The translations under genes and the position numbers were made by a program. The notes beneath the pieces were generated by a model. It searched no databases and had not been told where the DNA came from. It saw only the letters and a program-made list of their open reading frames with translations. Positions 6,335-44,390 of a stretch of DNA of 64,000 nucleotides are shown here, piece by piece. Every line of letters begins with the position of its first letter. Position 1 is the stretch's first letter. The stretch lies in NCBI RefSeq assembly GCF_014192115.1, contig NZ_JACHXL010000006.1, positions 1 to 64,000 of the forward strand, given 5' to 3'. The DNA comes from Psychrobacter luti (GTDB lineage: Bacteria > Pseudomonadota > Gammaproteobacteria > Pseudomonadales > Moraxellaceae).

Positions 6335-7609
6335 ATGAGTCATGTCGCGAGCAAAGATGTATCTGCCACTGCTAAAGCCATCAATACCTTTACCAATCCA
6401 GAAAATGTACAAGACTTTAATCAATATCCTGATGCGCGTGGACATTTCGGCGTTCATGGCGGTCGTTTTGTTTCTGAAACGCTGATGGCAGCATTAGAAG
6501 AGCTAGAGGCGCTATACACCAAAGTAAAAGCCGATCCGGCGTTTTGGGAAGAGTATCACAATGATTTGGTCAATTATGTTGGTCGTCCAACGCCGCTTTA
6601 TCATGCTAAGCGTCTCAGTGATGAGATTGGTGGCGCGCAAATTTATTTTAAACGTGAAGACCTCAACCATACTGGCGCGCATAAAGTTAATAACACCATT
6701 GGACAAGCGCTCCTTGCCAAAATGAGTGGTAAAAAACGTATTATTGCGGAAACTGGAGCAGGGCAACATGGCGTTGCGACGGCGACGATTGCTGCGCGCT
6801 TAGGGTTAGAATGTATCGTTTATATGGGCGCGGACGATGTCGAGCGCCAAAAGATGAACGTCTATCGTATGCGTTTGCTTGGTGCGACAGTGGTGCCAGT
6901 GACTTCAGGTTCACGGACGCTGAAAGACGCCATGAACGAAGCCATGCGTGATTGGGTCACTAATGTAGATAGCACTTATTATATTATCGGCACAGTTGCA
7001 GGCCCGCATCCTTATCCATTAGTGGTACGTGACTTCCAAGCGATTATCGGCAAAGAAGCGCGCATTCAGCATTTACAAAAAACCGGCAAATTACCAGATG
7101 CCTTAGTCGCTTGTGTCGGTGGTGGCTCGAATGCCATTGGTTTATTCTTTGACTTTCTCAATGACACTGAAGTCAAAATGTATGGCGTTGAAGCGACAGG
7201 TGACGGCATTGAAACCGGTCGTCATTCAGCGCCATTAGCTGCTGGTCGTATCGGCGTGTTACATGGCAACCGTACCTACCTGATGGCAGACGATGAAGGT
7301 CAAATTCAAGAGACGCATTCTATCTCAGCTGGTCTTGATTATCCTGGTGTCGGTCCTGAGCATAGCTTCTTAAAAGATATGAAACGTGTTGAATATGTTG
7401 GCTGTACCGATAAAGAGTCGTTAGAAGCTTTCCATGAAGCGACACGTAAGGAAGGGATTATCCCTGCGCTTGAATCTGCCCATGCGGTTGCTTATGCGCT
7501 TAAGCTGGCTAAAACTATGACCCCTAATCAAACCATTATCGTCAATATGTCAGGTCGTGGTGATAAAGATTTGCATTCGGTAATGAAGGCGGAAGGGATT
7601 GAGTTGTAG
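6335..7609 (+). CDS. trpB: Tryptophan synthase beta chain
   Basis: PLP-dependent subunit that condenses indole with serine. The 424-residue protein has the PLP lysine segment [14 protein letters not shown], the phosphate-cradling GGGSNAIG loop, [14 protein letters not shown] and the C-terminal SGRGDKD motif. It has an N-terminal extension of about 25 residues before the conserved [15 protein letters not shown] start of the family. The ATG at 6335 is preceded by TAGGAATT. It pairs with TrpA at 8581, but the two genes are separated by a membrane-protein gene. Confidence 0.97.
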
Positions 7610-16179: not shown

Positions 16180-16203
16180 CTATGTTTGGTCGGAACGGCA
16201 GGA
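16180..16203. repeat. Left attachment repeat (attL)
   Basis: A 24-bp sequence identical to 27564-27587. It contains the CCA end and acceptor stem of tRNA-Pro, but no tRNA body follows it here. That pattern marks the far end of an element integrated into the 3' end of the tRNA gene. The gap 16110-16494 holds this site, the displaced terminator and the 23-bp repeat at 16261; I see no gene in it. Confidence 0.9.
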
Positions 16204-16494: not shown

Positions 16495-18402
16495 CTAATT
16501 CTTATTTCCAATGTAATTAATTAAATTAGCGTCGTATCTATTATCTTTAAAAAACTTGTACGCGTACAAAGAGCCTTCTTGTGATATGTGACCTCCGTCA
16601 AGACTATAAGGAAATTCTAAATCACTCTTTAAATAGAAATCTTTTTCATCAAAAATGGTATCTCTTTTAACAAAGAAAACTCCTTTTTCATCCGCTATGT
16701 TATGAACGTAGTCATTAGCCTCTTGATTAAAAGTATCATTACTTTTTTGATGCTTGTAAGCTTTCTCTGACCATAACGAAGATTCCATTCGAGCAATTGG
16801 GTTTGATGCATAAGCTACAGGACTAGCCATTAAGATAACTTTAACTCCTTTAGATAATGCTAAGTCAATTGTTGGTTTAATATAGTGTAGTGATCCAGAT
16901 TGATATCTAACCGACCATAAACCTGCAAGGACTATAGCATCAAAATCTTCTATATTTTCAGAGACATACCTTCTGTTATATAGACACTGTGTATGTTGCT
17001 CTGTATTTAGCTGTGTTTTTGGAAAGTCATCATTAAGATAAGGTGCGCACCATGACGTAGTTATGGACTGCAGAAGGTAGTTATTATCTTTTGCAAACTC
17101 TTTCCAAAAAGGTTCGTACATTCCAGCATACGAAGAGCCGAAAAGTAAAATCTTTTTATCTCCAGTGTTAGTCAATAAACAAGAAGTTCCAAGATCTTTG
17201 TCGGGATAACCTAGGTCTGTGTCATTAAAGAAACAGTATCCTGTTGCTCTTGAAGGAAAAATGATATTTTTCATTTGCTCTTTGACGTATGGCTCTCTAT
17301 CAACAAACCTTGTTTTGGCTCCATCAGTTGCAATTATTATGATTGAAATTAAAAAAATTGAGGCAGCAATATAAATAGGCTTACATTTTAAATAACTTAA
17401 AAGAGTTGGAAAACTTCTTGGGAAATTAATTTTTTCAACATACTTATAACTTAGGAAGCCAAGAAGTATTGATAACGCCAAGCCTAAATAAATATAGTAT
17501 TCAGGCAATGCGAATGTATAAATAATGACTACCAAAGGCCAGTGCCACAAATAAATAGAGTAAGACCAAGTACCTATTTTTTGGAATATGATGTTGTTTG
17601 TGATGATACTGTCATTGCGTTGTGCCTGAATAATAAGAAACGAACCCACAACAGGAAATAGTGCTAAGTAACCTGGCCAAGCGTTTTCTGCTGAGATGAG
17701 GAAGTAAGACCCCACCACTAAAACTAACCCTATTCTCTCTAAAAGCTTTTTTCTATTCTCTTGTAATGCAAAAGGATAGAGATAGGCGACCCCACCAATC
17801 ATCATCTCCCATGCCCTCATAGGGAGAAGGTAATATGATGCGTTAGGTAATTTGTAGGTTGCTATAACAGAGAATATAAAACCAAGTACTGTCCCCACTA
17901 TTAGTATAGATTTCATCGTCTTGATAGACAGAAACTTGCGCATAGCGACTAGTATTAGCGGATAGATGATATAAAACTGCCACTCTACTGATAGTGTCCA
18001 AGTGTGTAACAGCCATTTCTCATGAGAAGCCGCGTCAAAATAACCTGCTTCTGACCAATAAACAAAGTTAGATAAGAAACCGACACTACTGGCAGCATGC
18101 TTCCCTAATGCTCTGTACTCTATAGGTGTCAGATAGAACCAGCCAAAGACTAACAATACCAAGCACAGTAACGCCAAGGCAGGGATAATCCTATTAGCAC
18201 GAGCCACATAGAAATTTAGAATAGAAAATTTTTCTTGCTCAATACCTCTAAATATAATTCCAGTCATTAAAAACCCTGAAATTACAAAGAAGACATCAAC
18301 ACCAGCAAAACCACCAGGCATCCAAGAGGCGTTAAAGTGAAATAGCAAAACACCGATGACTGCAAATGCCCTAAGGCCATTGATATCTTTTCTAAATTTC
18401 AT
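16495..18402 (-). CDS. OafA-type acyltransferase, AT3 plus SGNH
   Basis: The 635-residue inner-membrane protein has an N-terminal acyltransferase-3 domain (about 1-345) that opens with DINGLRAFAVIGVLLFHF and GFAGVDVFFVISGFLMTG and has around ten membrane segments. The C-terminal periplasmic SGNH-like domain has FGSSYAGMY as the serine block and DGGHIS as the Asp-His block. Such proteins O-acetylate lipopolysaccharide or other surface glycans. Codon use looks more AT-rich than the core genes. It lies at the left edge of the element, so it is likely cargo that changes the cell surface (antigenicity or phage receptor). The acceptor glycan cannot be told from sequence. Confidence 0.92.
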   Translation of the reverse strand: MKFRKDINGLRAFAVIGVLLFHFNASWMPGGFAGVDVFFVISGFLMTGIIFRGIEQEKFSILNFYVARANRIIPALALLCLVLLVFGWFYLTPIEYRALGKHAASSVGFLSNFVYWSEAGYFDAASHEKWLLHTWTLSVEWQFYIIYPLILVAMRKFLSIKTMKSILIVGTVLGFIFSVIATYKLPNASYYLLPMRAWEMMIGGVAYLYPFALQENRKKLLERIGLVLVVGSYFLISAENAWPGYLALFPVVGSFLIIQAQRNDSIITNNIIFQKIGTWSYSIYLWHWPLVVIIYTFALPEYYIYLGLALSILLGFLSYKYVEKINFPRSFPTLLSYLKCKPIYIAASIFLISIIIIATDGAKTRFVDREPYVKEQMKNIIFPSRATGYCFFNDTDLGYPDKDLGTSCLLTNTGDKKILLFGSSYAGMYEPFWKEFAKDNNYLLQSITTSWCAPYLNDDFPKTQLNTEQHTQCLYNRRYVSENIEDFDAIVLAGLWSVRYQSGSLHYIKPTIDLALSKGVKVILMASPVAYASNPIARMESSLWSEKAYKHQKSNDTFNQEANDYVHNIADEKGVFFVKRDTIFDEKDFYLKSDLEFPYSLDGGHISQEGSLYAYKFFKDNRYDANLINYIGNKN

Positions 18403-18523: not shown

Positions 18524-19009
18524 TCAAGATGTTTTCACTAATTCATCAATAATCCTTATCCTATCTAAGTAACTATCCTCTATATCCATATATTCTAAAA
18601 ATAGCCGTTTATGTGTAGCGCGGTGCATACCTTTGGGCTTACGTTGATATGCGCCATACTGCCAGCCTAAACGCTTTCTAATTGCTTGCATACGTGCATC
18701 AGGTCGCTGCCACGGCTGCATAAGTTGTGTTTGATAGTTCGCTCCTATGCAATGCCTACAAACGTAAATCCCAGCACAATAAAGCACGCCCACACGTTTA
18801 CAGCATTTAGGGCATGACCACCAATAGCGATAATGCCCATAGTTGCACGGTGTCGTTAATAGATCAATGTTATAGCGGTATGCTTTGCCGTTGTAGTTAT
18901 AGCCCACTGGTAGGCTGTCAGGCTTTGTTATGCGTAAATACTCACGATAGCTCGCTATGCTTAGCTGTGGGTAGTCATCAAGGCTGTAAGTATTTGCAGT
19001 GGTAGGCAT
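18524..19009 (-). CDS. Zinc-ribbon protein, paralogue A
   Basis: The 161-residue protein has a YPQLSIASYREYLR block, then C-x(8)-W-W-x-C-P-K-C and, further on, VLYCAGIYVCRHCIGANY, giving two Cys pairs of a treble-clef or zinc-ribbon type. A basic C-terminal region follows (QAIRKRLGWQYGAYQ). It is clearly related to the protein at 19284-19793. I chose the ATG at 19009 because it aligns with the paralogue start. An in-frame extension to a TTG at 19087 is open, but it would include the repeated 18-bp block at 19025. The function is unknown; similar zinc-ribbon proteins occur in phage-like elements. Confidence 0.7.
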   Translation of the reverse strand: MPTTANTYSLDDYPQLSIASYREYLRITKPDSLPVGYNYNGKAYRYNIDLLTTPCNYGHYRYWWSCPKCCKRVGVLYCAGIYVCRHCIGANYQTQLMQPWQRPDARMQAIRKRLGWQYGAYQRKPKGMHRATHKRLFLEYMDIEDSYLDRIRIIDELVKTS

Positions 19010-19024
19010 GGTTATATTTCGTAG

Positions 19025-19042
19025 GTTATCTAAATCATTAAG
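19025..19042. repeat. 18-bp repeat upstream of zinc-ribbon paralogue A
   Basis: The sequence GTTATCTAAATCATTAAG is found here and again at 19808-19825, in each case shortly upstream of a zinc-ribbon gene start. It shows that the duplication included upstream sequence or preserved a control site. Confidence 0.7.
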
Positions 19043-19087
19043 CAAGTTTGCCTTTTCTATCATATCTTGTCTGTTTGCTGCTCTCAA

Positions 19088-19294
19088 TCACATGGCTAGC
19101 ATCTTGGTTAATGGGTCGTTTCTGTCTTTTTCTCTATACTCTAAGCGTATGCCACCGCCTAGCAGTTTTGATTTGCTCATGGTGCATGACAACGCTGTTT
19201 TATAATCGTCATCAGTGAGTGCCATTTGCCTAACTTGTTCTATTTCATCGAGTAGGCTATCTAATGTAATTATATCCCTTGTTCTATCGCTCAT
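19088..19294 (-). CDS. Small protein between the zinc-ribbon paralogues
   Basis: The 68-residue protein begins MSDRTRDIITLDSLLDEIEQ and has the block DDDYKTALSCTMSKSKLLGG. This block reminds me of small phage proteins encoded near terminase genes, but I cannot name a family with confidence. The ATG at 19294 has AGGCAGGG upstream and overlaps the end of the upstream zinc-ribbon gene by 11 bp, which suggests translational coupling. Confidence 0.6.
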   Translation of the reverse strand: MSDRTRDIITLDSLLDEIEQVRQMALTDDDYKTALSCTMSKSKLLGGGIRLEYREKDRNDPLTKMLAM

Positions 19295-19793
19295 AGCTTG
19301 CCCTGCCTTTGTTTTTATTAATTGCCACCATAGTTGCACCGCATATCTTTTGTACTAGCTTGTTATGCTCATTTATTAGCCTGTAGTAGGTAGAGAAGTG
19401 CATGTGTTTTGGTCTGCCTTGATTACCATGCGCTATCCCTGCTTGCCAGCCTAAACGCCTCCTGATTGCTTCAGCACGGCTAAATAAACGGTCTATAGGT
19501 TGTTTTAGCTGTGAACCATAATTAGCACCTATGCAGTGTCTGCAAACGTATAAGCCAGCACAATATAATACTGATACTCTTTTGCTGCACTTTGGACATA
19601 ACCACCAATGACGGTAATTGCCATAGTGACAAGCGGTGTTATCTAATTTTATGCTGTAGCTGTAAGACTTGCCACCATAGCTATAACCTAACTCGATACT
19701 GTAAGCTTTGCCTTGCCTCAACTGCTCACGATAGCTGCTAATGCTCAATCTAGGGTAGTTATTCAAGCTTGAAGTAGTGGCAATGGCTGGCAT
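19284..19793 (-). CDS. Zinc-ribbon protein, paralogue B
   Basis: The 169-residue relative of the protein at 18524-19009 shares YPRLSISSYREQLR, the SYSIKL strand, C-x(8)-W-W-x-C-P-K-C, VLYCAGLYVCRHCIGANY and AEAIRRRLGWQAG. The two Cys pairs and the WW are identical in both copies. The C-terminal tails diverge. It heads a three-gene unit with the 68-residue gene and paralogue A. It has no good ribosome binding site. Confidence 0.7.
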   Translation of the reverse strand: MPAIATTSSLNNYPRLSISSYREQLRQGKAYSIELGYSYGGKSYSYSIKLDNTACHYGNYRHWWLCPKCSKRVSVLYCAGLYVCRHCIGANYGSQLKQPIDRLFSRAEAIRRRLGWQAGIAHGNQGRPKHMHFSTYYRLINEHNKLVQKICGATMVAINKNKGRASYER

Positions 19794-19962: not shown

Positions 19963-20159
19963 GGGACACTTGGGACAACGGGACAACGCCCGTCCTTAAT
20001 GGCTTGTAGCTGTCCCAGTCTATTTTTAGCCTTTGGGACACTTGGGACAAACTAGCATATTGATGTATTCTGTCCCAGCTGTCCCAGTGGTTTTTTAGTG
20101 CTTGGGACAGTGCTTATCCCTTGCGGTGTATGGGTTGTCCCAGTTGTCCCGCCTGTCCC
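19963..20159. repeat. Iteron-like cluster of twelve GGGACA motifs
   Basis: GGGACA occurs on the plus strand at 19963, 19972, 19980, 20035, 20044 and 20104. Its complement TGTCCC occurs at 20011, 20071, 20080, 20136, 20145 and 20154. Neighbouring copies are mostly 9 bp apart (CTTGGGACA or CTGTCCCAG units). The cluster covers the 3' end of the DUF927 gene and the following 90 bp. Phased repeats beside a replication-type gene suggest a replication origin; that is inference. Confidence 0.75.
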
Positions 20160-22595
20160 AATGCTTTTATCAGTTTCATAACTTAATATGTCGTTTTTGA
20201 TAGCATAGACACGCTTACGGTTTTTTTCAAACGGTAAAGCAATCCTGCATGTTTTGCGGTCATTCTCAGTCACATTCAGTAATTTAGCATCGTCTAATAC
20301 CTGTAGTACTTTGCTTTTACTAAATGGTGAACATACTTCATCAAACATGCTAGTAGAGAAATAATATTCGCCTGTATCGTAGTTATGATAGCCTGCGCGG
20401 TTAATGATTTTATGCTCAAAATCTTGATAGGCGGTGCTGTGACAAGGCTGAAAGCGACTTGATCCGTGCTGTTCAATAAATGCTTTGATATGTTCTATAA
20501 TTTGGCGTTGCTCATGCTCACCATCACGGCCATAGTTATCAAGCCAATTATCTAAACATACCCTAACGGCTGTGGTTGCTTGTCCTACTTGCCAGCCTGT
20601 AATGCCTGCGCTTGTTGCTATCTCTCCAGCTGTTGCCACAATAGCGAACCGTTTAGCCACTCTATGCGCTTGCGGTGCTAGCTTTGGGTAATGGCTCATA
20701 AAGTCGTTTACAAGCTGCCTAGCGGTTGCTGTGGTCGCTGCTTTGTCATTGGTGATATGTTCTAGCCACGCCATACCAGCTACACCATAGAAAGTATTTG
20801 ATAACTCTTTTATTTTATCGGCTTGTGCTGCGCCCGTTTTTGCCATTACCAAACTATCAAACGTCTTTAAGCCTTTGCCAGCATCAGCATCTATATGAGC
20901 TATGCGAACCTCAATACCTGCATTAGTCTTTTGACCTGCTTGCGCCATAAGGTTCTGTAGTGACTCCTCACCATTAGATAAAAAAATAATGCGCCATGTT
21001 TTGGCTATACGGTTATGCCCTGTAGTGGTGCTGCGCCCTTTACCTTGACCATTAGCTAGCATATAGCTACTTTTGCCAATAATTTTGGGATCACATTCGC
21101 TTATTTCATCGAGGGGTAAAAAACTATCGTTATACTCGCTTGCTGTGCCCTCTAAGGCGTTATCTGTGCTGCGCCATGTCTTAGTGTAGCTGTCAGGCTT
21201 GCCCTATACACTAGCAGCCGTTTTTAGCGATAATGACTTACCCATACTTGATGAACCTAGTATGTGAAAACCGCCTCCGTCATCATCTAGTAGCGCGAGT
21301 AATTGCCCTGCAAACGCGCAAGCAATAGAGAAAACAAAACGGCTTTGTTCGGCTAGTGGTTTGCATAATTCATCACGCCATTGTTCTAATGTCCCTTGCT
21401 GGGTTATCGTGCTGTTGATTGCATGGGCAGACTGGTAAACAATCAACTCCTTACCATCACTACCTATTGCACCATTAGGCAATATATATTGCTCATCGTG
21501 CCAGCCTAGCTTATCCACGCATAACGCCCGCTTGTGAATAGGGTAGTCCTGAATATAAGTATCTAAATAGCTACGCTGTTTGGGGTTGGTGGTAATGTTC
21601 AAGCCTTGACTAGCCAATTCTCTACGATATTCACGGGCATCACCTTGTAGCAGTGATAACGGCATTGACCACGTATGTAGCACGCTATCATCATCACGCC
21701 ATTGTAATAACCGCCCCCATGTACCGCTGCTTGTGTCCCTTACTTTTGCGATAACCTCAATCGGTGAACAAACAAACGCCTTAAACTTAAAGGTTATATT
21801 TGCTGGGTTATCATCGTTATACTTCACAAAAAACAATCCATCGTGATATAGCTCAAAACGTCCATCAGCATAAATCATCGGCTCATTCAGCTGTGGATCA
21901 TCGCGCCATTCAGGATAGTAGGCAGACTCTTTTAAATTAATGATTTGGCTGTCATCAGCTGCCAGTATCGCCTCATAGCTATGGTTAGCATGTAGCAAGG
22001 TGACAATATCAGCCATAGTAACCAATGCCCTAGCATTCACACCTGCTAGTAGATTTATCATGCGTTTGTTATCTATGGTCATTGGTACGGTTAGCAGTGA
22101 TCCGCTACTCCAATGCTGCACCATCTTTTTGAGGTGCTGACTTGTCTTTTGAGGACTAACAATAATAGTTATATCATCAGCTGCCATACATTGATAAGCA
22201 TCAATAGCATGGGTTATATCATCAAACGCTATCACCTCATTGGCTTTGTTTAGCTCACCCATGACGATAGCGCCATACCCCGTAGGGTCAATAACAATGG
22301 GCTTTGCTTTGCTGTTTGGTGTGTAGAATACCGCGCCTACAATATCGCCTTGTTTATCGGTCAATCTTAGGGCTATCGTGCCAGCTGTCGGTACTACTTT
22401 GTCGTCATCTGTAGTAAGATTGTCGGTGACGTTAAGCAAGCTATTAGGCGGTAGTAGGTCAAATAGTTTAAGCAATAGCTTATCGTTTGCCAGTCCTTGC
22501 CGTGTGACTGCATCAAAGCTATTTATTACCACTGTAAAGCCTGTGCTAAATGCACGGGCTTTTTCATGGACGGCTGTTTGTGGTGTAGTGGTCAT
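20052..22595 (-). pseudogene. DUF927 primase/helicase-type gene with internal TAG
   Basis: Two open stretches (22595-21204 and 21203-20052) are in the same frame and separated only by a TAG at 21204-21206. The first gives 463 residues: a divergent primase-like region, then the DUF927 domain up to the Walker A motif GSSSMGKS (447-454) and KTAASV. After the stop the frame continues GKPDSYTKTWRSTDNALEG and reaches the Walker B-like FLPLDEIS (about 492-499). The C-terminal part (from 21062, 336 aa) holds the rest of the ATPase and a DNA-binding-like tail. From memory of the family, the stop replaces a Trp in a V-W-G motif (TGG to TAG). DUF927 proteins are typical replication proteins of P4-like satellites and plasmids. 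As written, the ATPase is cut between Walker A and B. Confidence 0.85.
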
Positions 22596-22714
22596 CTAGT
22601 CCCCCTTGCTTGCGACTGGTTCGGCTGGCGTGTGGCTCTATATTTTTTATAGTAGCTTTTGCGCTTGGCGTGCTTGCGGCTTTGCTTTGGTGGGTAGCTC
22701 TTATTAGTAGGCAC
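22592..22714 (-). CDS. Candidate 40-residue very basic protein
   Basis: A GTG-started frame (PTNKSYPPKQSRKHAKRKSY...) rich in Lys, Arg, Gln and Tyr. Its start overlaps the end of the upstream gene by 11 bp, and its TGA overlaps the ATG of the DUF927 gene as ATGA. This matches the overlap style of the whole operon and is the main argument that it is real; otherwise about 100 bp between two genes would be idle. No family is recognised. A nucleic-acid-binding role is possible from the charge alone. Confidence 0.45.
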   Translation of the reverse strand: MPTNKSYPPKQSRKHAKRKSYYKKYRATRQPNQSQARGTR

Positions 22715-23108
22715 AAGCATCTACCTTACCAAAACCAGTTTGGGCTAAGGGTTCGTTGATAGTGTCCAGTTGGCTATAAAGCAGATTAATCCAAGTATCG
22801 GCGGCATCTTGTGACAGACGCGCCATTGCTATAACTGTACTTGGCTCTACTTTTTGCTGATAGACAAGGTTTAATAACTGCCCTAAATCATGTAAGACAG
22901 TAGCAGCCCCGTTAATGTCACAAGCAATATCCGATAGCATGATAGACGGCATTAAAATAACTTCGTCATCATCAGCACTGGTTAAGTCGATAACCTTACG
23001 CTGTTTGTTTTGCACAATAGACACGCCGTTATCATACGAACCATTAAGGGTTTGATTAGATAGTGTAGGGGTGTTTGTGTTTGAGGTCGTGCGGATTGAA
23101 TTAGGCAT
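22704..23108 (-). CDS. Unknown 134-residue protein of the element
   Basis: A Ser/Thr/Asn-rich N-terminus of about 35 residues is followed by a mostly helical, acidic domain (VILMPSIMLSDIACDIN..., LLNLVYQQKVEPSTVIAMAR). I recognise no family. It overlaps the upstream gene by 8 bp and lies directly ahead of the DUF927 gene, so it may assist replication; that is inference from position. Confidence 0.6.
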   Translation of the reverse strand: MPNSIRTTSNTNTPTLSNQTLNGSYDNGVSIVQNKQRKVIDLTSADDDEVILMPSIMLSDIACDINGAATVLHDLGQLLNLVYQQKVEPSTVIAMARLSQDAADTWINLLYSQLDTINEPLAQTGFGKVDACAY

Positions 23109-23634
23109 GATAATGCCCTCCTTGCGTTGTTTTTTGAGTGAATGCCACGCTATACGGTAAAAGTATAGGGTGACGGGTCTTACTCTCGGTCACGCAAGCA
23201 ACCGCCCTGCATATTCGCCTTTCGGCTATTGTATTTTGCAGCGTCAACCCGTCATAGTCGGTTAGCAAGTGATTTGCTATAGATATGATGGTTTGCCCCC
23301 TTGTTGCACTCGAGTGTGCTTGTGGGGTTATGCTTGAATAGATAGGGACAGCTTGAGAGGCTGCGCTATTATCAGGCATAAAAAAAGCCAATAAGTAACG
23401 GTATGGCTTACCGCTTGCGTGTTTTGAGAGGTCTATATAGTAACCGCTGCTATCATCAGTTGCAATCTGTTTTGCTTGTGCTGGCTGGCAAGCTACCAGT
23501 GAGAGTAGCAAGCCAATACCTATCACCCATGCCATAAAGATGATAAAGCTAAGTAGTAAGCCACGCTTATGTGGCTCATTGCGATTGTGTGCCCCGTGGC
23601 TGGCTTTTAGACTGGTTCTGTTATCGTTGGTCAT
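23101..23634 (-). CDS. Candidate lipoprotein or membrane protein, unknown
   Basis: The 177-residue protein has a hydrophilic 24-residue N-terminus, one hydrophobic segment (LLLSFIIFMAWVIGIGLLLS) and directly after it LVACQ, which fits a lipobox with Cys at 49. The rest is soluble (YYIDLSKHASGKPYRYLLAF...). The long N-region is unusual for a lipoprotein signal, so it could instead be a single-pass membrane protein. It overlaps both neighbours (14 bp upstream, 8 bp downstream). The function is unknown. Confidence 0.6.
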   Translation of the reverse strand: MTNDNRTSLKASHGAHNRNEPHKRGLLLSFIIFMAWVIGIGLLLSLVACQPAQAKQIATDDSSGYYIDLSKHASGKPYRYLLAFFMPDNSAASQAVPIYSSITPQAHSSATRGQTIISIANHLLTDYDGLTLQNTIAERRICRAVACVTESKTRHPILLPYSVAFTQKTTQGGHYHA

Positions 23635-23896
23635 TTCTTACGTCCTCCACGTTGAAAGCTATTTCTGCTATTTTTATAGATAGGTTTTTTAGCGACTCCA
23701 CTTGTCGGCTGCCTGTAGGTAACAAGCTGCCTAACATCTTGGTTTCAAGTTCTGCAAGTTCTGTCATGGTTTTAATGATGGTCACATTGGCGTGTAAGGT
23801 AATGATTAGCTGGTCAATAAAGTCATCAGGTATCATTAACATACCCTCTCTTTTCAGCCCGTCCATGACTTCGTTTATTAAATCGTCACTACTCAT
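23621..23896 (-). CDS. Small helical protein of the element
   Basis: A 91-residue, probably all-helical protein (DDLINEVMDGLKREGMLMIP, DDFIDQLIITLHANVTIIKTM, SLKNLSIKIAEIAFNVED). No family is recognised. It is the third in a run of three short acidic proteins of similar size and helical character, joined by 8-bp overlaps. Confidence 0.6.
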   Translation of the reverse strand: MSSDDLINEVMDGLKREGMLMIPDDFIDQLIITLHANVTIIKTMTELAELETKMLGSLLPTGSRQVESLKNLSIKIAEIAFNVEDVRNDQR

Positions 23897-24140
23897 GATC
23901 TGCTACCTCCTCTTGTGGCGCTGACAACATGCCGTGTAACTGGTCGGCTATGTCCTCAGTAGTAGCGGCATTGCCTGATAGCGCCATGATGACCGCATTG
24001 ATAACGCCACCTGATACCGCGCAATCTACTTGCACGGCTTGTAATGCCATTGCTAGATGACCGTTATCAATATTCAATAAGACTATCTGCTCACTGATAC
24101 TTTCCAAGTGGTCGGCTGATACTAATATTTGATTACTCAT
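23889..24140 (-). CDS. Small acidic protein, likely paralogue of the 24133 gene
   Basis: The 83-residue protein shares a loose pattern with the upstream product: hydrophobic helix, then LAMALQAVQ against LAYALNTIE, GVINAVIMALSG against GVIVAIRSALLA, and a DIADQL against DIMSDL ending. This suggests an old duplication. No function is known. Its start overlaps the upstream stop by 8 bp. Confidence 0.6.
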   Translation of the reverse strand: MSNQILVSADHLESISEQIVLLNIDNGHLAMALQAVQVDCAVSGGVINAVIMALSGNAATTEDIADQLHGMLSAPQEEVADHE

Positions 24141-24411
24141 TAACTTTCACCTCGTCTTGTGCGATTAGGTCGCTCATGATGTCAGCACTCATTTTGCTGG
24201 CATGTTCGCTGTGTGCCAGTAGCGCGGAACGTATCGCCACAATCACGCCCTGACTTGCTGGGTCGGTTGTTTCGATGGTGTTCAGCGCATAAGCAAGGCT
24301 TTCACAATCGTTCGATACGTCTTGTATGTAGTCGTCCACATGGCACAGCGTATAAGTGTCCACTGCTACCAGTCGCGGCTCTAATACTTCCAATGGTTCG
24401 GTTATGCTCAT
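24133..24411 (-). CDS. Small acidic protein of the element
   Basis: A 92-residue acidic protein related to the next gene (see its entry). The block DDYIQDVSNDCESLAYALN is likely a helix. Its ATG overlaps the TGA of the upstream HTH gene as ATGA, which indicates coupled translation. Function unknown. Confidence 0.6.
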   Translation of the reverse strand: MSITEPLEVLEPRLVAVDTYTLCHVDDYIQDVSNDCESLAYALNTIETTDPASQGVIVAIRSALLAHSEHASKMSADIMSDLIAQDEVKVNE

Positions 24412-24698
24412 GGTGTCACCTCGCTGTTAGATAGTTCGCTTTCAAGTAAAGTCTGCTCATCAAGCCAATAGACTGAAAAACGCTTGTCATTGTGCGTGAC
24501 CATCTCACTTTGAATGGTTAGCCCTGCGGTTCTTAGGTCGTGTATGCGCTGCGCTAGGCATGTGATTTGATAAAGGCGGTATGCGTCCCATGTGGTGATC
24601 GTTGCCCCTGTCATCAGGTGTGCTCTAACAATATCAATCTGTGTCTTAGGCGCTGGCTGGTTGGTCACTGGGGCGGTGGTGCTGGCTGTAGTCATCAT
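24408..24698 (-). CDS. Small winged-helix/HTH protein
   Basis: The 96-residue protein has a Thr/Pro-rich N-terminus and a helix-turn-helix block: QIDIVRAHLMTGATITTWDA, YRLYQITCLAQRIHDLRTAG, LTIQSEMV and a wing ending in FSVYWL. It matches the helix-turn-helix family often found in phages and satellites near replication genes (HTH_39 type, from memory). It probably binds DNA within the element. The ribosome binding site AGGTG serves either of two adjacent ATGs (24698, 24695). Confidence 0.7.
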   Translation of the reverse strand: MMTTASTTAPVTNQPAPKTQIDIVRAHLMTGATITTWDAYRLYQITCLAQRIHDLRTAGLTIQSEMVTHNDKRFSVYWLDEQTLLESELSNSEVTP

Positions 24699-24701
24699 GG
24701 G

Positions 24702-24998
24702 TTACACCTCGCTAGTGGTTGAGGTGTGAGAATTAAGCCATTCGTGAATGTCTGCATAGCTCCATGCGGTCATAGTAGGGCTTAACTTCTTGCCAGCTGG
24801 GAAACGTCCATCTTTTGACCATTCAAAAAGGGTGGTTTTGCTAAAGGGTAGGAACGGCAAAATGTCCTTTGCTCTGCCCATACCAGTAGTAGGCATTTGC
24901 ATAGCTGGACTGTTTGCGTTGGTTGGTTCGGTATCGTGCGAGGTGTCACCAGTAAAAGGAATTACTGGCGCGTTTTGGGTGGCTTGTTGCTGTGTCAT
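24702..24998 (-). CDS. AlpA-like DNA-binding regulator
   Basis: The 98-residue protein has a disordered N-terminus and a C-terminal AlpA/excisionase-type winged helix: LPFLPFSKTTLFEWSKDGRF, PAGKKLSPTMTAWSYADIHE and a WLNSH end. AlpA proteins activate integrase or excision genes in P4-like elements. The ATG at 24998 is preferred over 25004 because GGAG at 25007-25010 is only 2 bases from the latter and 8 from the former. It heads the operon running to the DUF927 gene. Confidence 0.8.
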   Translation of the reverse strand: MTQQQATQNAPVIPFTGDTSHDTEPTNANSPAMQMPTTGMGRAKDILPFLPFSKTTLFEWSKDGRFPAGKKLSPTMTAWSYADIHEWLNSHTSTTSEV

Positions 24999-25080
24999 TT
25001 TCATATCTCCATGTTAGCCGTAAAGGTGTTCTACGGCTTTCAACATGGCTCTATGGTATGTGGTGGGGTTGTTCGATAGT

Positions 25081-25123: not shown

Positions 25124-26047
25124 TTAAATACTATTTTCATGGGCAAGTTTTAACCAGTAAGCAATAACGTCTTTACTCATGGTATTACCTTGTTTCTCAA
25201 TAGCTTTCTGTATTCTCCCATTACTATCAATCGCATAAGGTTGTGTTAAGTCTATGTTTAACAGCTCACTAGTAAGTGCTGATATTATTTTACTAGCATT
25301 ATTAGCTGTTCTAGGGTGCATTGGCTCATCTTCACTTGATAAAGACTTACTTTCTAAATTTCTTATTTTTTCTAGTAAACCTTTTACTTCAGCTTCCTTT
25401 TTCTTCAACTCTTCAATAGCACTATCATATATATCAAGGTCAATATTCTGACTTCTAGCTGTCTTTTGCTGTTCTATTTTTAGTTTCTCTTTGAATTGCT
25501 GTCTTTCTTTTATATAACTAAGAGTTGTGCGAGCGTCTATCGTTAATGCTTTCTCACATTCTCTATATGAATGCCTATCTAAGCCTATGTGCTGCATACA
25601 ATCTAATTCTAGTATGTCCTCTATCTTCCAGCACTTATCGTTAAAAGAATCATCTATGTCATCTTCTAGCAATCGCTCTAAGAATTCTTCAGTTGGGTAA
25701 AAGCTCGGGTCATCGTTGCTATAGGCATCATAACTATGACGGACATAGGTAGGAACATGGTCTAAAGACTCTATAAATTCTCTACTAGTCCCTTCGTTAA
25801 TACTACACAATATATCTACTTCTGCTCCATTTTCATCTACTGCCATATAGTCATAACGGTAAAAATCTAGCTTTAAAAATTCATCGTCATTGATTAAATA
25901 TTGGATTATCAGTTGCTTTCTATCATCAGCATAAAGTTCTAGCAACTCTATAAACAAGTGGAAGCTAATAAACTTGTCATCGTCCTCTGTTTCCCAAGAC
26001 AGTTCTTCATCTTCTGCTTTTCTTATCGCTTCGTAAATAATTCCCAC
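25124..26047 (-). CDS. Unknown 307-residue protein with coiled coil
   Basis: The protein has an acidic, aromatic-rich N-terminal half (about 1-150), a coiled-coil stretch (about 160-235: LSYIKERQQFKEKLKIEQQK and LKKKEAEVKGLLEKIRNLES) and a C-terminal block HPRTANNASKIISALTSELL ending ISKDVIAYWLKLA-like (observed MSKDVIAYWLKLA). This C-terminal block recalls proteins found beside integrases in genomic islands, from memory. The start is GTG at 26047. No enzymatic motif is visible. It lies between the integrase and the AlpA-like operon, where defence or control cargo is often found, but nothing in the sequence shows such a function. Confidence 0.6.
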   Translation of the reverse strand: MGIIYEAIRKAEDEELSWETEDDDKFISFHLFIELLELYADDRKQLIIQYLINDDEFLKLDFYRYDYMAVDENGAEVDILCSINEGTSREFIESLDHVPTYVRHSYDAYSNDDPSFYPTEEFLERLLEDDIDDSFNDKCWKIEDILELDCMQHIGLDRHSYRECEKALTIDARTTLSYIKERQQFKEKLKIEQQKTARSQNIDLDIYDSAIEELKKKEAEVKGLLEKIRNLESKSLSSEDEPMHPRTANNASKIISALTSELLNIDLTQPYAIDSNGRIQKAIEKQGNTMSKDVIAYWLKLAHENSI

Positions 26048-26165: not shown

Positions 26166-27407
26166 TTAGCCATGCTTTTGTGCTTGTTGTTTGAAGTCTG
26201 CACGTATCAAGTTATCAATCTTGCCAGCATAGGCATCATCAATAAATTTTGCCCATTCATTCATCATCTTAGTTCTGTAAGGTAAATGCTGCGCCCCGTT
26301 GTATGCTTTGCTTATCTTGTTTTCTTTTTCATGTGCCAGCTGTAGCTCTATAGCTTCGTGCATAAATTCCTGTTCATGTAGGGTAGTGCTGGCAAGCCCT
26401 CTAAAGCCGTGCCCCGTCATTCTACCCTTATAACCCATGCGCCATAGGGCAGTGATAAAAGCGTTCATACTGTACGGCTTACGGGTTGAGGTATTAAAGA
26501 AAACGTATTGATCCGAAAAACCTAACGCCTTGATTTGCTCTAAGATTGCCATTGTTTGCGGTGCTAATGGTACTAAATGCGGTCTATCCATTTTCATCTT
26601 GTCGGCTGGTATGCGCCATATTTTGGCTTTGTAGTCTATCTCGCTCCATTCCATAAAGCGTAGTTCTTGCGTTCTTACAAACGTATAGCATAGAAACCAT
26701 AAGCCAAGCTTCACCAGTAGATCACCATCATAGGCATTAATATCTTGAAGTAGTTTAGGTAGTTGCTGGCTAGTGATACGGCTATGGTGCTTCACCTTAT
26801 GCGGTTTTAATGCTTCGGTTAGGTCGTTGGCTGGGTTGAGATTAGTTAAGCCCTCACGTATTGCTTGTTTAAAGATTTGCCCTGTTTGACGTATTGCACG
26901 CCTTGCCATATCAGCTGCGCCCCTTGCTTCGATAGATTTGCCAATAGCCAAAATATCAGGCGCGGTTATGTCCTCTATGTTCATGTGACCAATAAAGGGC
27001 TTAATATCGCGTTGGTACTGTGAATAATCACGGCTATAGGTAGTAGGGGCTATATGCGCTTTGCGGTCATCATGCCAACGCTGGGCTATCGTATCAAATG
27101 CCCTTGATCCGTCATTGTCGGCTTGTGTCTTTTTCTTATCGTCTTTAGGGTTCACACCATCAGCTATTAATCTTTTAATCTCAATATTGCGCTGGCGTGC
27201 ATTTTGTAGGCTCATTATTGGATAAGTGCCAATAGTAAGGGTTTGCTGTTTGCCTTGCCAACGGTATGCGCTGATCCATGACTTAACGCCCGTATAACGA
27301 ACCCATAGTTGCAGCCCGTTACCATCGCTATGTTTATCAGGTCGTTTTGTAGCAATAGAGGTGTTACTAGGCTGTAGCTTGTTGATACCTGTATGGGTTA
27401 GGGGCAT
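26166..27407 (-). CDS. P4-type tyrosine recombinase (integrase)
   Basis: Site-specific recombinase that inserts and excises the element at tRNA-Pro. The 413-residue protein has the N-terminal DUF4102 arm-binding domain (GLQLWVRYTGVKSWISAY, LTIGTYPIMSLQNAR), a SAM-like core domain (WHDDRKAHIAPTTYSRD) and the catalytic domain with Arg in FVRTQELRFMEW, GHGFRGLAST (H-x-x-R), LAHEKEN and the Tyr nucleophile in ISKAYNG. I chose the ATG at 27407 because AAAGGAT stands about 8 bases upstream; the frame is open further, to 27545, but that part overlaps the 23-bp repeat and looks non-coding. The integrase points away from the tRNA. Confidence 0.95.
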   Translation of the reverse strand: MPLTHTGINKLQPSNTSIATKRPDKHSDGNGLQLWVRYTGVKSWISAYRWQGKQQTLTIGTYPIMSLQNARQRNIEIKRLIADGVNPKDDKKKTQADNDGSRAFDTIAQRWHDDRKAHIAPTTYSRDYSQYQRDIKPFIGHMNIEDITAPDILAIGKSIEARGAADMARRAIRQTGQIFKQAIREGLTNLNPANDLTEALKPHKVKHHSRITSQQLPKLLQDINAYDGDLLVKLGLWFLCYTFVRTQELRFMEWSEIDYKAKIWRIPADKMKMDRPHLVPLAPQTMAILEQIKALGFSDQYVFFNTSTRKPYSMNAFITALWRMGYKGRMTGHGFRGLASTTLHEQEFMHEAIELQLAHEKENKISKAYNGAQHLPYRTKMMNEWAKFIDDAYAGKIDNLIRADFKQQAQKHG

Positions 27408-27447
27408 GGGTCTATCCTTTGTTGGTATTGTCGAGGTAAAAATACTT

Positions 27448-27470
27448 CGATACCAACAATAATACCAACA
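27448..27470. repeat. Right copy of 23-bp internal repeat (arm site)
   Basis: Identical to 16261-16283. It lies 41 bp upstream of the integrase ATG and 93 bp inside the right attachment repeat. An inverted partial copy (GTTGGTATTG) is at 27421-27430. The position over the integrase promoter would let bound integrase repress its own gene. Confidence 0.65.
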
Positions 27471-27563
27471 TTCTATATGGAACGCCATACACCTATAAGG
27501 TAGTGAAAACCTGAAAAACGCCCAAAATAAAGGGCAGACGGTCAATGACGGTCTGCCCTAAAT

Positions 27564-27587
27564 CTATGTTTGGTCGGAACGGCAGGA
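27564..27587. repeat. Right attachment repeat (attR)
   Basis: A 24-bp sequence shared with 16180-16203. Bases 27571-27587 are the 3' end of tRNA-Pro, including the encoded CCA; 27564-27570 lie beyond it. The element therefore restores the tRNA 3' end on insertion. Confidence 0.9.
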
Positions 27588-27647
27588 TTTGAACCTGCGA
27601 CCACTACACCCCCAGTGTAGTGCGCTACCAGACTGCGCTACGCCCCG
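27571..27647 (-). tRNA. tRNA-Pro (anticodon GGG)
   Basis: The 77-nt gene, including the encoded CCA, folds as a cloverleaf: acceptor CGGGGCG pairs with CGTTCCG, the D-loop is of CAGTCTGGTAG type, the anticodon stem CTACA/TGTAG encloses CTGGGGG (anticodon GGG), and the T-arm has GGTTCAAATCC. It reads the CCC and CCU proline codons. Its 3' end is the insertion site of the element. Confidence 0.96.
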
Positions 27648-39882: not shown

Positions 39883-40710
39883 ATGCCTATCGTAAAAGCA
39901 AAGCCAACATCACCAGGCCGTCGTTTTGTTGAAAAAGTGGTGCATCCACACCTTTACAAAGGTCGTCCTTTTGCAGCGCTTCTCGAATCAAAAAGTAAGT
40001 CAGGTGGTCGTAACAATAATGGTCGCATCACGACTCGTCACATCGGTGGTGGTCATAAGCAACATTATCGTATTATCGATTTCAAACGTACTAAAGACAA
40101 TATCCCAGCCACGGTAGAGCGTATCGAATACGATCCTAACCGTACTGCGCACATTGCTTTACTTAAGTACGCTGATGGTGAACGCCGCTATATCATTGCT
40201 GCTAAAAAACAAGCAGTTGGTGATACAGTAATGTCAGGAGAGAACTCTCCAATCCGTCCAGGTAACTGTTTACCGCTGAAAAACATCCCATTGGGTACTG
40301 TTATTCACAATATCGAACTTAAAATCGGTAAAGGTGCACAGATTGCTCGTTCTGCGGGTGCTAGCGTTCAACTACTAGGTCGTGACGGTATTTATGCTAT
40401 TTTACGTCTACGTTCTGGCGAAACACGCCGTGTACACGTGAACTGCCGTGCCGTTATTGGTGAAGTTTCTAACACTGAAAACAACTTGAAATCACTTGGT
40501 AAAGCCGGTGCTTCACGTTGGCGTGGTGTTCGTCCTTCTGTTCGTGGTGTTGCTATGAACCCGGTTGATCACCCACATGGTGGTGGTGAAGGTCGTAACA
40601 AAGGTCGCCATCCAACCAGCCCTTGGGGTCAGAAGTCTAAAGGACTTAAAACGCGTCATAATAAGCGTACTGACAGTATGATCATCCGCCGCCGCGCCAA
40701 GAAGAAATAA
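39883..40710 (+). CDS. rplB: 50S ribosomal protein L2
   Basis: 275 residues. Needed for subunit association and peptidyl transfer. Landmarks are [35 protein letters not shown] and the C-terminal [14 protein letters not shown] with the functionally important His. Normal length. Confidence 0.98.
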
Positions 40711-41341: not shown

Positions 41342-42070
41342 ATGGGTCAAAAAGTACATCCAATCGGAATTCGTCTTGGTGTTGTCAAAAAGCATAATGC
41401 AAACTGGTATGCTAACCCTAAACAATACTCAGAATACCTGATCAACGACATTCAAGTCCGCGAGTATCTACGCAAAAAACTAGATAATGCTATGATTAGC
41501 AATATCATGATTGAGCGTCCTACTGGTGCTGCTAAGATTACCATCGCCACTGCGCGTCCTGGTATTGTTATCGGTAAGAAAGGCGAAGATATCGAAAGAC
41601 TTCAAAAAGAATTGACCAAGATTATGGGCGTACCTGCTCAGGTCAACATTGAAGAAATCACTTCACCTGATCTTGATGCACGTTTGGTCGCTGATGGTAT
41701 CGGCAGCCAGCTTGAGCGTCGTGTTATGTTCCGTCGTGCGATGAAACGTGCTGTACAGAACAGCATGCGCTCTGGTGCTAAAGGTATTAAAGTTGAGTTG
41801 TCTGGCCGTCTTGGCGGTGCTGAGATCGCTCGTACTGAATGGTACCGTGAAGGTCGTGTGCCATTACATACGCTCCGCGCTGATATTGACTATGCGTCAG
41901 TACGTGCAGAGACAACTTACGGCACTATCGGTGTAAAAGTTTGGATTTTCCGTGGCGAAATCCTTGACGGCATGAACAGTGTATACAATCCCGTCAAAGA
42001 AGAGCAGACTCGTGCGCCAAAACGCCGTGGTCGTGGAAACGGAAACCGTCGAAACACAGACAGAGGTTAA
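41342..42070 (+). CDS. rpsC: 30S ribosomal protein S3
   Basis: 242 residues. mRNA-entry-site protein with helicase activity together with S4. It contains the KH domain ([20 protein letters not shown]) and the C-terminal [20 protein letters not shown]. The basic Asn/Arg-rich tail ([18 protein letters not shown]) is slightly longer than in E. coli (233). Confidence 0.98.
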
Positions 42071-43853: not shown

Positions 43854-44390
43854 ATGGCAAGATTAAAATCTTTATATAACGAAGAATTAAAGCAGCAAAT
43901 CAAAGAAGAGCTTGGTTTGGCGAACGTGATGCAGGTGCCTAAAATCACTAAAATCACACTAAACATGGGTGTAGGCGGCGCGTCTCAAGACAAGAAATTG
44001 CTTGAAGGTGCAGTAGCTGACATGACCGCTATCGCTGGTCAAAAACCTGTTGTCACCAAAGCGCGTAAATCAGTTGCTGGCTTTAAAATTCGTGAAGAAT
44101 GGCCAATTGGCTGTAAAGTAACGCTACGCGGTGAGCAAATGTACGAATTTTTAGATCGTCTCATTGCCATTGCAATTCCTCGTATTCGTGATTTCCGCGG
44201 TTTTTCACCTAAAGCCTTTGACGGACGTGGTAACTACTCATTGGGTATCAAAGAACAAATTGTATTCCCAGAAGTAGACTTTGACAAGATTGATCGTATC
44301 CGCGGTATGGATGTGACAATCACCACGTCAGCTGGTACTGATGAAGAAGGTCGTGCGTTGCTTAAAGCATTCGGCTTCCCATTTAAATAA
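43854..44390 (+). CDS. rplE: 50S ribosomal protein L5
   Basis: 178 residues, binds 5S rRNA. It contains [40 protein letters not shown] and the [20 protein letters not shown] segment. The ATG at 43854 matches the family start; another ATG 6 bases upstream is also possible from the ribosome binding site spacing. Confidence 0.97.

Follow-up and report, generated by a model that had tools for sequence, protein, structure and literature searches.

The window analysed here, a 64-kb stretch of DNA, carries an 11.4-kb mobile element at the 3′ end of a tRNA-Pro gene (anticodon GGG), framed by 24-bp att repeats. Within this element lies a gene for a DUF927 helicase that is interrupted by an in-frame TAG (Table 1). 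Four loci (L162, L171, L175 and L177) represent empty sites, in which the two flanks lie 24–36 bases apart beside the same tRNA-Pro; L180 looks like an empty site too, with its left and right sides taken from separate comparisons. A related element of ~10.3 kb occupies the same tRNA-Pro site in P. maritimus (L031). The gene order common to the relatives runs from the integrase through variable cargo, an excisionase-like regulator, small genes and the DUF927 helicase to a second stretch of variable cargo. The combination that marks a satellite, namely an integrase, an excisionase/AlpA-like regulator ('AlpA-like' being our own label for the excisionase-like gene) and a replication gene in one small element, is present, with the replication gene broken. 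We take the locus to be an integrative mobile element of satellite or island kind.

Table 1. Coordinates of the element and its features within the 64-kb window
Feature	Position	Strand	Remarks
Left att repeat, 24 bp	16180–16203		Identical to 27564–27587
Acyltransferase–SGNH protein, cargo	16495–18402	−	Pfam
Two similar Cys-rich ORFs	18524–19087, 19284–19793	−	Cargo side, downstream of the helicase gene; translations compared
Probable replication origin, 12 GGGACA iterons	19963–20159		Overlaps the 3′ end of the helicase gene
Helicase gene, 3′ part, 383 codons and terminal TAG	20052–21203	−	Walker B, remaining ATPase core, C-terminal domain; DUF927 profile 216–281
In-frame TAG	21204–21206	−	Codon 464 of 847; 90 of 91 distinct homologous loci have Trp here
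DUF927 helicase gene, 5′ part, 463 codons	21207–22595	−	N-terminal region and Walker A; DUF927 profile 1–214
Six small ORFs between the excisionase-like and helicase genes	22704–24698	−	22704–23108, 23101–23634, 23621–23896, 23889–24140, 24133–24411, 24408–24698
Excisionase/transcriptional regulator family	24702–25004	−	PHROG; 93% identical, full length, in L031
307-aa ORF	25124–26047	−	Variable cargo position between the integrase and excisionase-like genes
Tyrosine integrase ORF	26166–27545	−	True start probably near codon 47; L031 and L043 have ORFs of 413 aa, L046 one of 412 aa
Right att repeat	27564–27587		Takes in the 3′ end of tRNA-Pro
tRNA-Pro, anticodon GGG	27571–27647	−	Integration site, unoccupied beside the same tRNA in L162, L171, L175, L177 and L180

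Most of the other core genes align over their full length to a relative, the integrase from about codon 47 onwards. The small ORF that begins at 23101 is 85% identical to its counterpart in L031, and the one that begins at 22704 encodes 134 aa compared with 157–204 aa in five relatives; a short form that can be aligned with it occurs in L047. The cargo is more individual. The 307-aa ORF has no match in Pfam, PADLOC or NCBIfam, and none of the 23 loci compared contains a relative of it. The two Cys-rich ORFs look zinc-ribbon-like by eye and are without family matches. The acyltransferase–SGNH protein, which possibly alters surface polysaccharide, has one relative among the loci compared, in L032. 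Nothing related to drug resistance emerged from those element ORFs that were scanned against Pfam, PADLOC and NCBIfam. No virion gene was matched among the element ORFs, each of which was compared with Pfam, PHROGs or both, apart from ORF 19088–19339, which was compared with NCBIfam only. Three virion families (PF04860, PF03237 and PF05065), used as indicators of a resident helper phage, were without a match in the genome. A second DUF927 gene was not found in the genome either.

The helicase gene occupies a minus-strand frame from 22595 to 20052, in which 463 residues are followed by the TAG at 21204–21206 and then by 383 residues up to the terminal TAG at 20052–20054. These are exactly the coordinates given by an earlier sequence-only reading of the locus. 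Walker A (GSSSMGKS) spans residues 447–454 and the Asp-Glu of FLPLDE, taken as Walker B, residues 496–497, so that the stop at codon 464 falls between the two motifs, as that reading had also held. The Pfam DUF927 profile is matched at positions 1–214 before the TAG and at positions 216–281 after it, and a whole-genome scan matched profile positions 1–281 of 284 through one TAG. Because the match continues on both sides of the stop, the frame is not open by chance. The nearest relative, L002, is 87.7% identical and aligns to all 847 codons with its own 847 without a gap; an indel is therefore absent from the window's helicase gene, in agreement with the earlier claim that neither insertion nor deletion had disturbed it. 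Across the 64-kb window, no other TAG is both preceded by 150 or more open codons and followed in frame by 80 or more. The same scan returned three TAA codons, at 40708–40710, 42068–42070 and 44388–44390, each followed by 95–138 open in-frame codons.

To place the protein among known helicases, we modelled residues 200–800 read through the stop. The model, built from a 65-row alignment, comprises 601 residues with a pLDDT of 82.9; a first model from 14 rows reached a pLDDT of 36.5 and was discarded. In the leading rows of both alignments, the W at the stop is there by construction. The best fold match is Cch of SCCmec type IV (5dgk; Z 29.4 over 469 residues at 4.0 Å; Foldseek E 2.8e-23), followed by SaPIbov1 Rep (8tch; Z 26.2 over 458 residues at 6.7 Å; Foldseek E 2.7e-20). 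The next matches are MCM proteins, with Z scores of 13.4 and below. The DUF927 domain is thus present over nearly its whole length and the model has the fold of the family, for which ATP-driven unwinding and iteron binding are the predicted functions. In the model, the residue at the stop column is placed at position 265, just after the helix (251–262) that follows the P-loop.

Both staphylococcal proteins are also matched by sequence, with the relative L003 as the query: SaPIbov1 Rep over the ATPase region, and Cch with an E value of 9.1e-11. SaPIbov1 Rep shares the fold of the present protein and has Trp at the column of the stop, but sequence identity is only 17%, and the present protein has ~240 additional N-terminal residues without an assigned fold. 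Cch, by contrast, has Ala at this column and resides in a staphylococcal cassette, whereas the present gene belongs to an element at a tRNA site. PMC5862659 applies the term bona fide helicase to a DUF927 protein from a Staphylococcus aureus island.

The sequence-only reading had proposed a conserved Trp at the position of the stop, and the comparison bore this out. Codon 464 faces Trp in 110 of the 111 other loci that span it and Phe in the remaining one (L060); L029, L030, L051 and L052 of the helicase set stop short of the codon and lie outside the 111. After removal of 20 loci that repeat the same genomes, 90 Trp and one Phe remain among 91 distinct loci, a count obtained by matching repeated genomes, since duplicate removal by DNA context was imperfect (101 contexts). 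All 111 have a sense codon here, and the stop is confined to the window's copy. With Trp in SaPIbov1 Rep and Ala in Cch (both aligned through L003), the residue is highly conserved in this branch of the family, though not absolutely in the family as a whole. The 27-base pattern around the codon is identical outside the codon itself in two genomes of the genus, G026 and G032. Allowing up to three mismatches, it occurs in 19 genomes: that of the window, 17 with Trp and G062. The G062 match, with three mismatches, was treated as chance because this genome has no helicase match. Among viral contigs, the search for near-identical copies gave two stretches only, L191, which is unrelated, and L192, an 80% relative on the same contig as L111.

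We next consider what the interrupted frame can still yield. Between the TAG and Walker B, the 3′ frame contains no ATG, GTG or TTG; the first such codon lies at 21062, beyond Walker B, and re-initiation therefore cannot rescue the helicase. This also bears on a helicase made naturally of two cooperating polypeptides that meet at codon 464. Each half does keep its family match, but without a start codon before 21062 the ATPase site would be complete in neither half, and 0 of the 111 other loci are split at this codon; naturally divided homologues, which the sequence-only reading had named as the counter-case to its claim, did not appear. We regard such a natural split as extremely improbable. 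A working member of the family would be expected to hold Walker A and Walker B in one continuous polypeptide, and in the window's copy the TAG separates them. The copy is a disrupted gene of the DUF927 initiator helicase family and not a working member of it.

Suppression of the TAG could in principle restore the full-length helicase, and read-through might even serve to control replication; it would fit a 3′ half that remains open and under purifying selection. Against it, the amber-suppressor tRNA suggested by the sequence-only reading did not turn up, the anticodon CUA occurring in none of the 42 tRNAs that Rfam recovered with 150 of the 207 first-look candidates scored, and the RF1 gene prfA is present (524.1 bits, cut-off 423.25). 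Codon 464 is a stop in none of the other 111 loci. Furthermore, 5 of the 25 open stretches of at least 250 codons in the window end in TAG, comprising the two helicase halves, proS (146–1864), trpB (6335–7609) and the cargo acyltransferase; the helicase gene as a whole likewise terminates in TAG. In proS and trpB, the TAG falls no more than a few residues away from where the family profile ends, and these normal ends indicate that TAG functions as a stop in the host. Together with the presence of RF1, they led us to reject a recoding of TAG. Read-through at codon 464 is, in our assessment, very unlikely.

The state of the gene downstream of the stop is informative about its age. Purifying selection continues to act on the 3′ half, with a pairwise dN/dS against L002 of 0.133 for the part before the stop and 0.129 for the part after it. 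At otherwise invariant columns, defined without copies that have a frameshift or align only partially, the window's protein deviates at 2 of 200 in the 5′ part and 1 of 168 in the 3′ part, within the range of 20 other copies (0–8 and 0–7, respectively). Changes private to the window number 6 nonsynonymous and 25 synonymous in the 5′ half (omega 0.064) and 16 and 22 in the 3′ half (omega 0.184; Fisher p 0.068 between the halves). The 3′ halves of four relatives have 20 nonsynonymous and 54 synonymous private changes (omega 0.094; p 0.135 compared with the window). In L008, an unbroken copy, the 3′ half reaches an omega of 0.246, which shows that the value for the window is not unusual. At the 97.5% bound, at most 28% of the private branch could be unselected. 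The raised private omega of the 3′ half could mean that the loss is not brand new. Since purifying selection is kept on the 3′ half, the stop is recent or else a base-call error; judged from these substitution patterns, it would be recent relative to the divergence from the sampled relatives, and not necessarily brand new. The inference from a clean downstream half to a recent event, already drawn in the sequence-only reading, is in line with these results.

The main rival is that the TAG is a base-call or assembly error and that the gene is intact in the organism. A wrong consensus base at the codon would give the same picture, the rest of the helicase gene looks functional, and two other Psychrobacter copies carry frameshifts that resemble sequencing errors. 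These two are the only other loci among L001–L028 of the genus that are broken in the gene body: L005, disrupted near residue 351, and L009, disrupted near residues 291 and 500. Both come from genomes of low completeness (G075 at 85% and G048 at 84%, respectively), which makes sequencing error likely, and we probably see such errors there. The window's assembly, by contrast, is 99.98% complete with 0.01% contamination, the change in question is a substitution rather than an indel, and the window contains no other TAG of this pattern. On balance, we consider an error rather unlikely. Of the three options left by the sequence-only reading, recent loss fits best, suppression found no support, and an error in the base call stays as the chief competitor. 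We favour, with good confidence, an ordinary recent nonsense mutation by which the element lost its own replication helicase while keeping its probable origin, its integrase and its excisionase-like gene.

Stops inside the matches of L013, L014, L020, L022, L023, L027 and L028 were also examined as possible breaks and dismissed; they lie past about residue 807 and were read as varying gene ends. Elsewhere in the genus, G048 has a second, degenerate helicase copy with several stops (C54, 24995–25825), and G022 (C6) has a helicase fragment with one TAA.

The 3′ end of the helicase gene overlaps an array of 12 GGGACA iterons. Their strand order, +++-++--+---, is mirror-symmetric about position 20060, and all 12 sites pair within 2 nt. 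Nine further GGGACA sites occur elsewhere in the 64 kb. Such symmetry was reached in 0 of 2,000 random layouts. When positions were fixed and only the strands shuffled, full symmetry was reached in 163 of 2,000, which indicates that the layout of positions carries much of the symmetry signal. The full 12-site array is also found in L031, L033, L034 and L037; L035 has it too, plus one additional site. In L032 and L036, 10 of the 11 sites are paired. The remaining 13 loci in the symmetry count, from which L039 with its 4 GGGACA sites was omitted, have 7–10 sites and weaker symmetry, L038 with a variant motif. Other relatives carry the motif variants CGGGACA and CGGACA, with fewer sites.

This arrangement resembles that of SaPI Rep helicases, for which PMC7581432 describes a C-terminal domain that recognizes an iteron origin directly downstream of the gene; according to the same source, SaPI Rep appears to bind this origin as two hexamers. 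For a gene of this family, an iteron array would be expected where the gene ends or shortly beyond, and such an array was found here, overlapping the gene end rather than following it. By this analogy, the GGGACA array is a probable replication origin. The sequence-only reading, which spoke of autonomous replication without mentioning the array, gains some weight from it.

Taken together, the replicon would pair a DUF927 initiator helicase of the SaPIbov1 Rep/SCCmec Cch type with an iteron origin located at the 3′ end of its gene. In an active element, if SaPI Rep is a guide, two helicase hexamers would load on the mirror-image halves of the array and open the DNA between them. In the window's copy, a single recent nonsense mutation would terminate the protein immediately beyond the helix next to the P-loop. 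What is made, a product of 463 residues, would keep Walker A and would lack Walker B, the remainder of the ATPase core and also the C-terminal domain, the last of which would, as in SaPI Rep, bind the iterons. We infer that no active helicase is made and that the element no longer replicates by itself, with the integrase, the excisionase-like gene and the origin presumably still usable.

A nonsense codon in one gene of a mobile element is ordinary; the useful part is the iteron-array replicon around it. Psychrobacter elements appear to carry a SaPI-like replicon, with a DUF927 helicase and a mirror-symmetric array of 12 iterons. If so, they would make it possible to study outside Staphylococcus how an origin is opened by two self-loading hexameric helicases, and the window's copy would serve as a natural loss-of-helicase control.

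Among known satellites, the PICMI-type minimalist phage satellites of Vibrio are similar in being small and in combining an integrase, an excisionase/AlpA-like regulator and a replication protein, as described in PMC10803314. The search model given in that source uses DUF3987/DUF5906 primases and its prototype lies downstream of fis, whereas the present element has a DUF927 protein and a tRNA-Pro site; it also differs in that no helper phage is known here. In P4-like satellites, a core gene may be inactivated in an element that is otherwise kept, and PMC8628076 reports this as frequent for alpA. The lesions described there are frameshifts in alpA, in contrast to a nonsense codon in a replication helicase. 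Deletion of prim in a PICMI brought transfer below detection (PMC10803314), as did deletion of repA in PLE (PMC7145576). By analogy, loss of transfer is likewise expected for the window's element without its helicase. An alternative outcome is that the element now depends on others for its replication. It would keep a symmetric iteron origin, an integrase and an excisionase-like gene, lack its own helicase, and be copied in trans by that of a related incoming element whose iterons are likewise GGGACA, which would make it a satellite of satellites; we hold this to be unlikely.

Such elements are not confined to the window's genome. A relative of the 3′ half of the helicase was found in 30 of the 105 genomes of the genus searched, the window's genome included. 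An integrase and small-gene module also occurs on the Psychrobacter plasmid pA52P5 (L190, NZ_MN657113.1), where DNA similarity covers 4% of the query. This plasmid additionally carries a DUF3987 protein and repM, and perhaps represents such an element fused with a plasmid.
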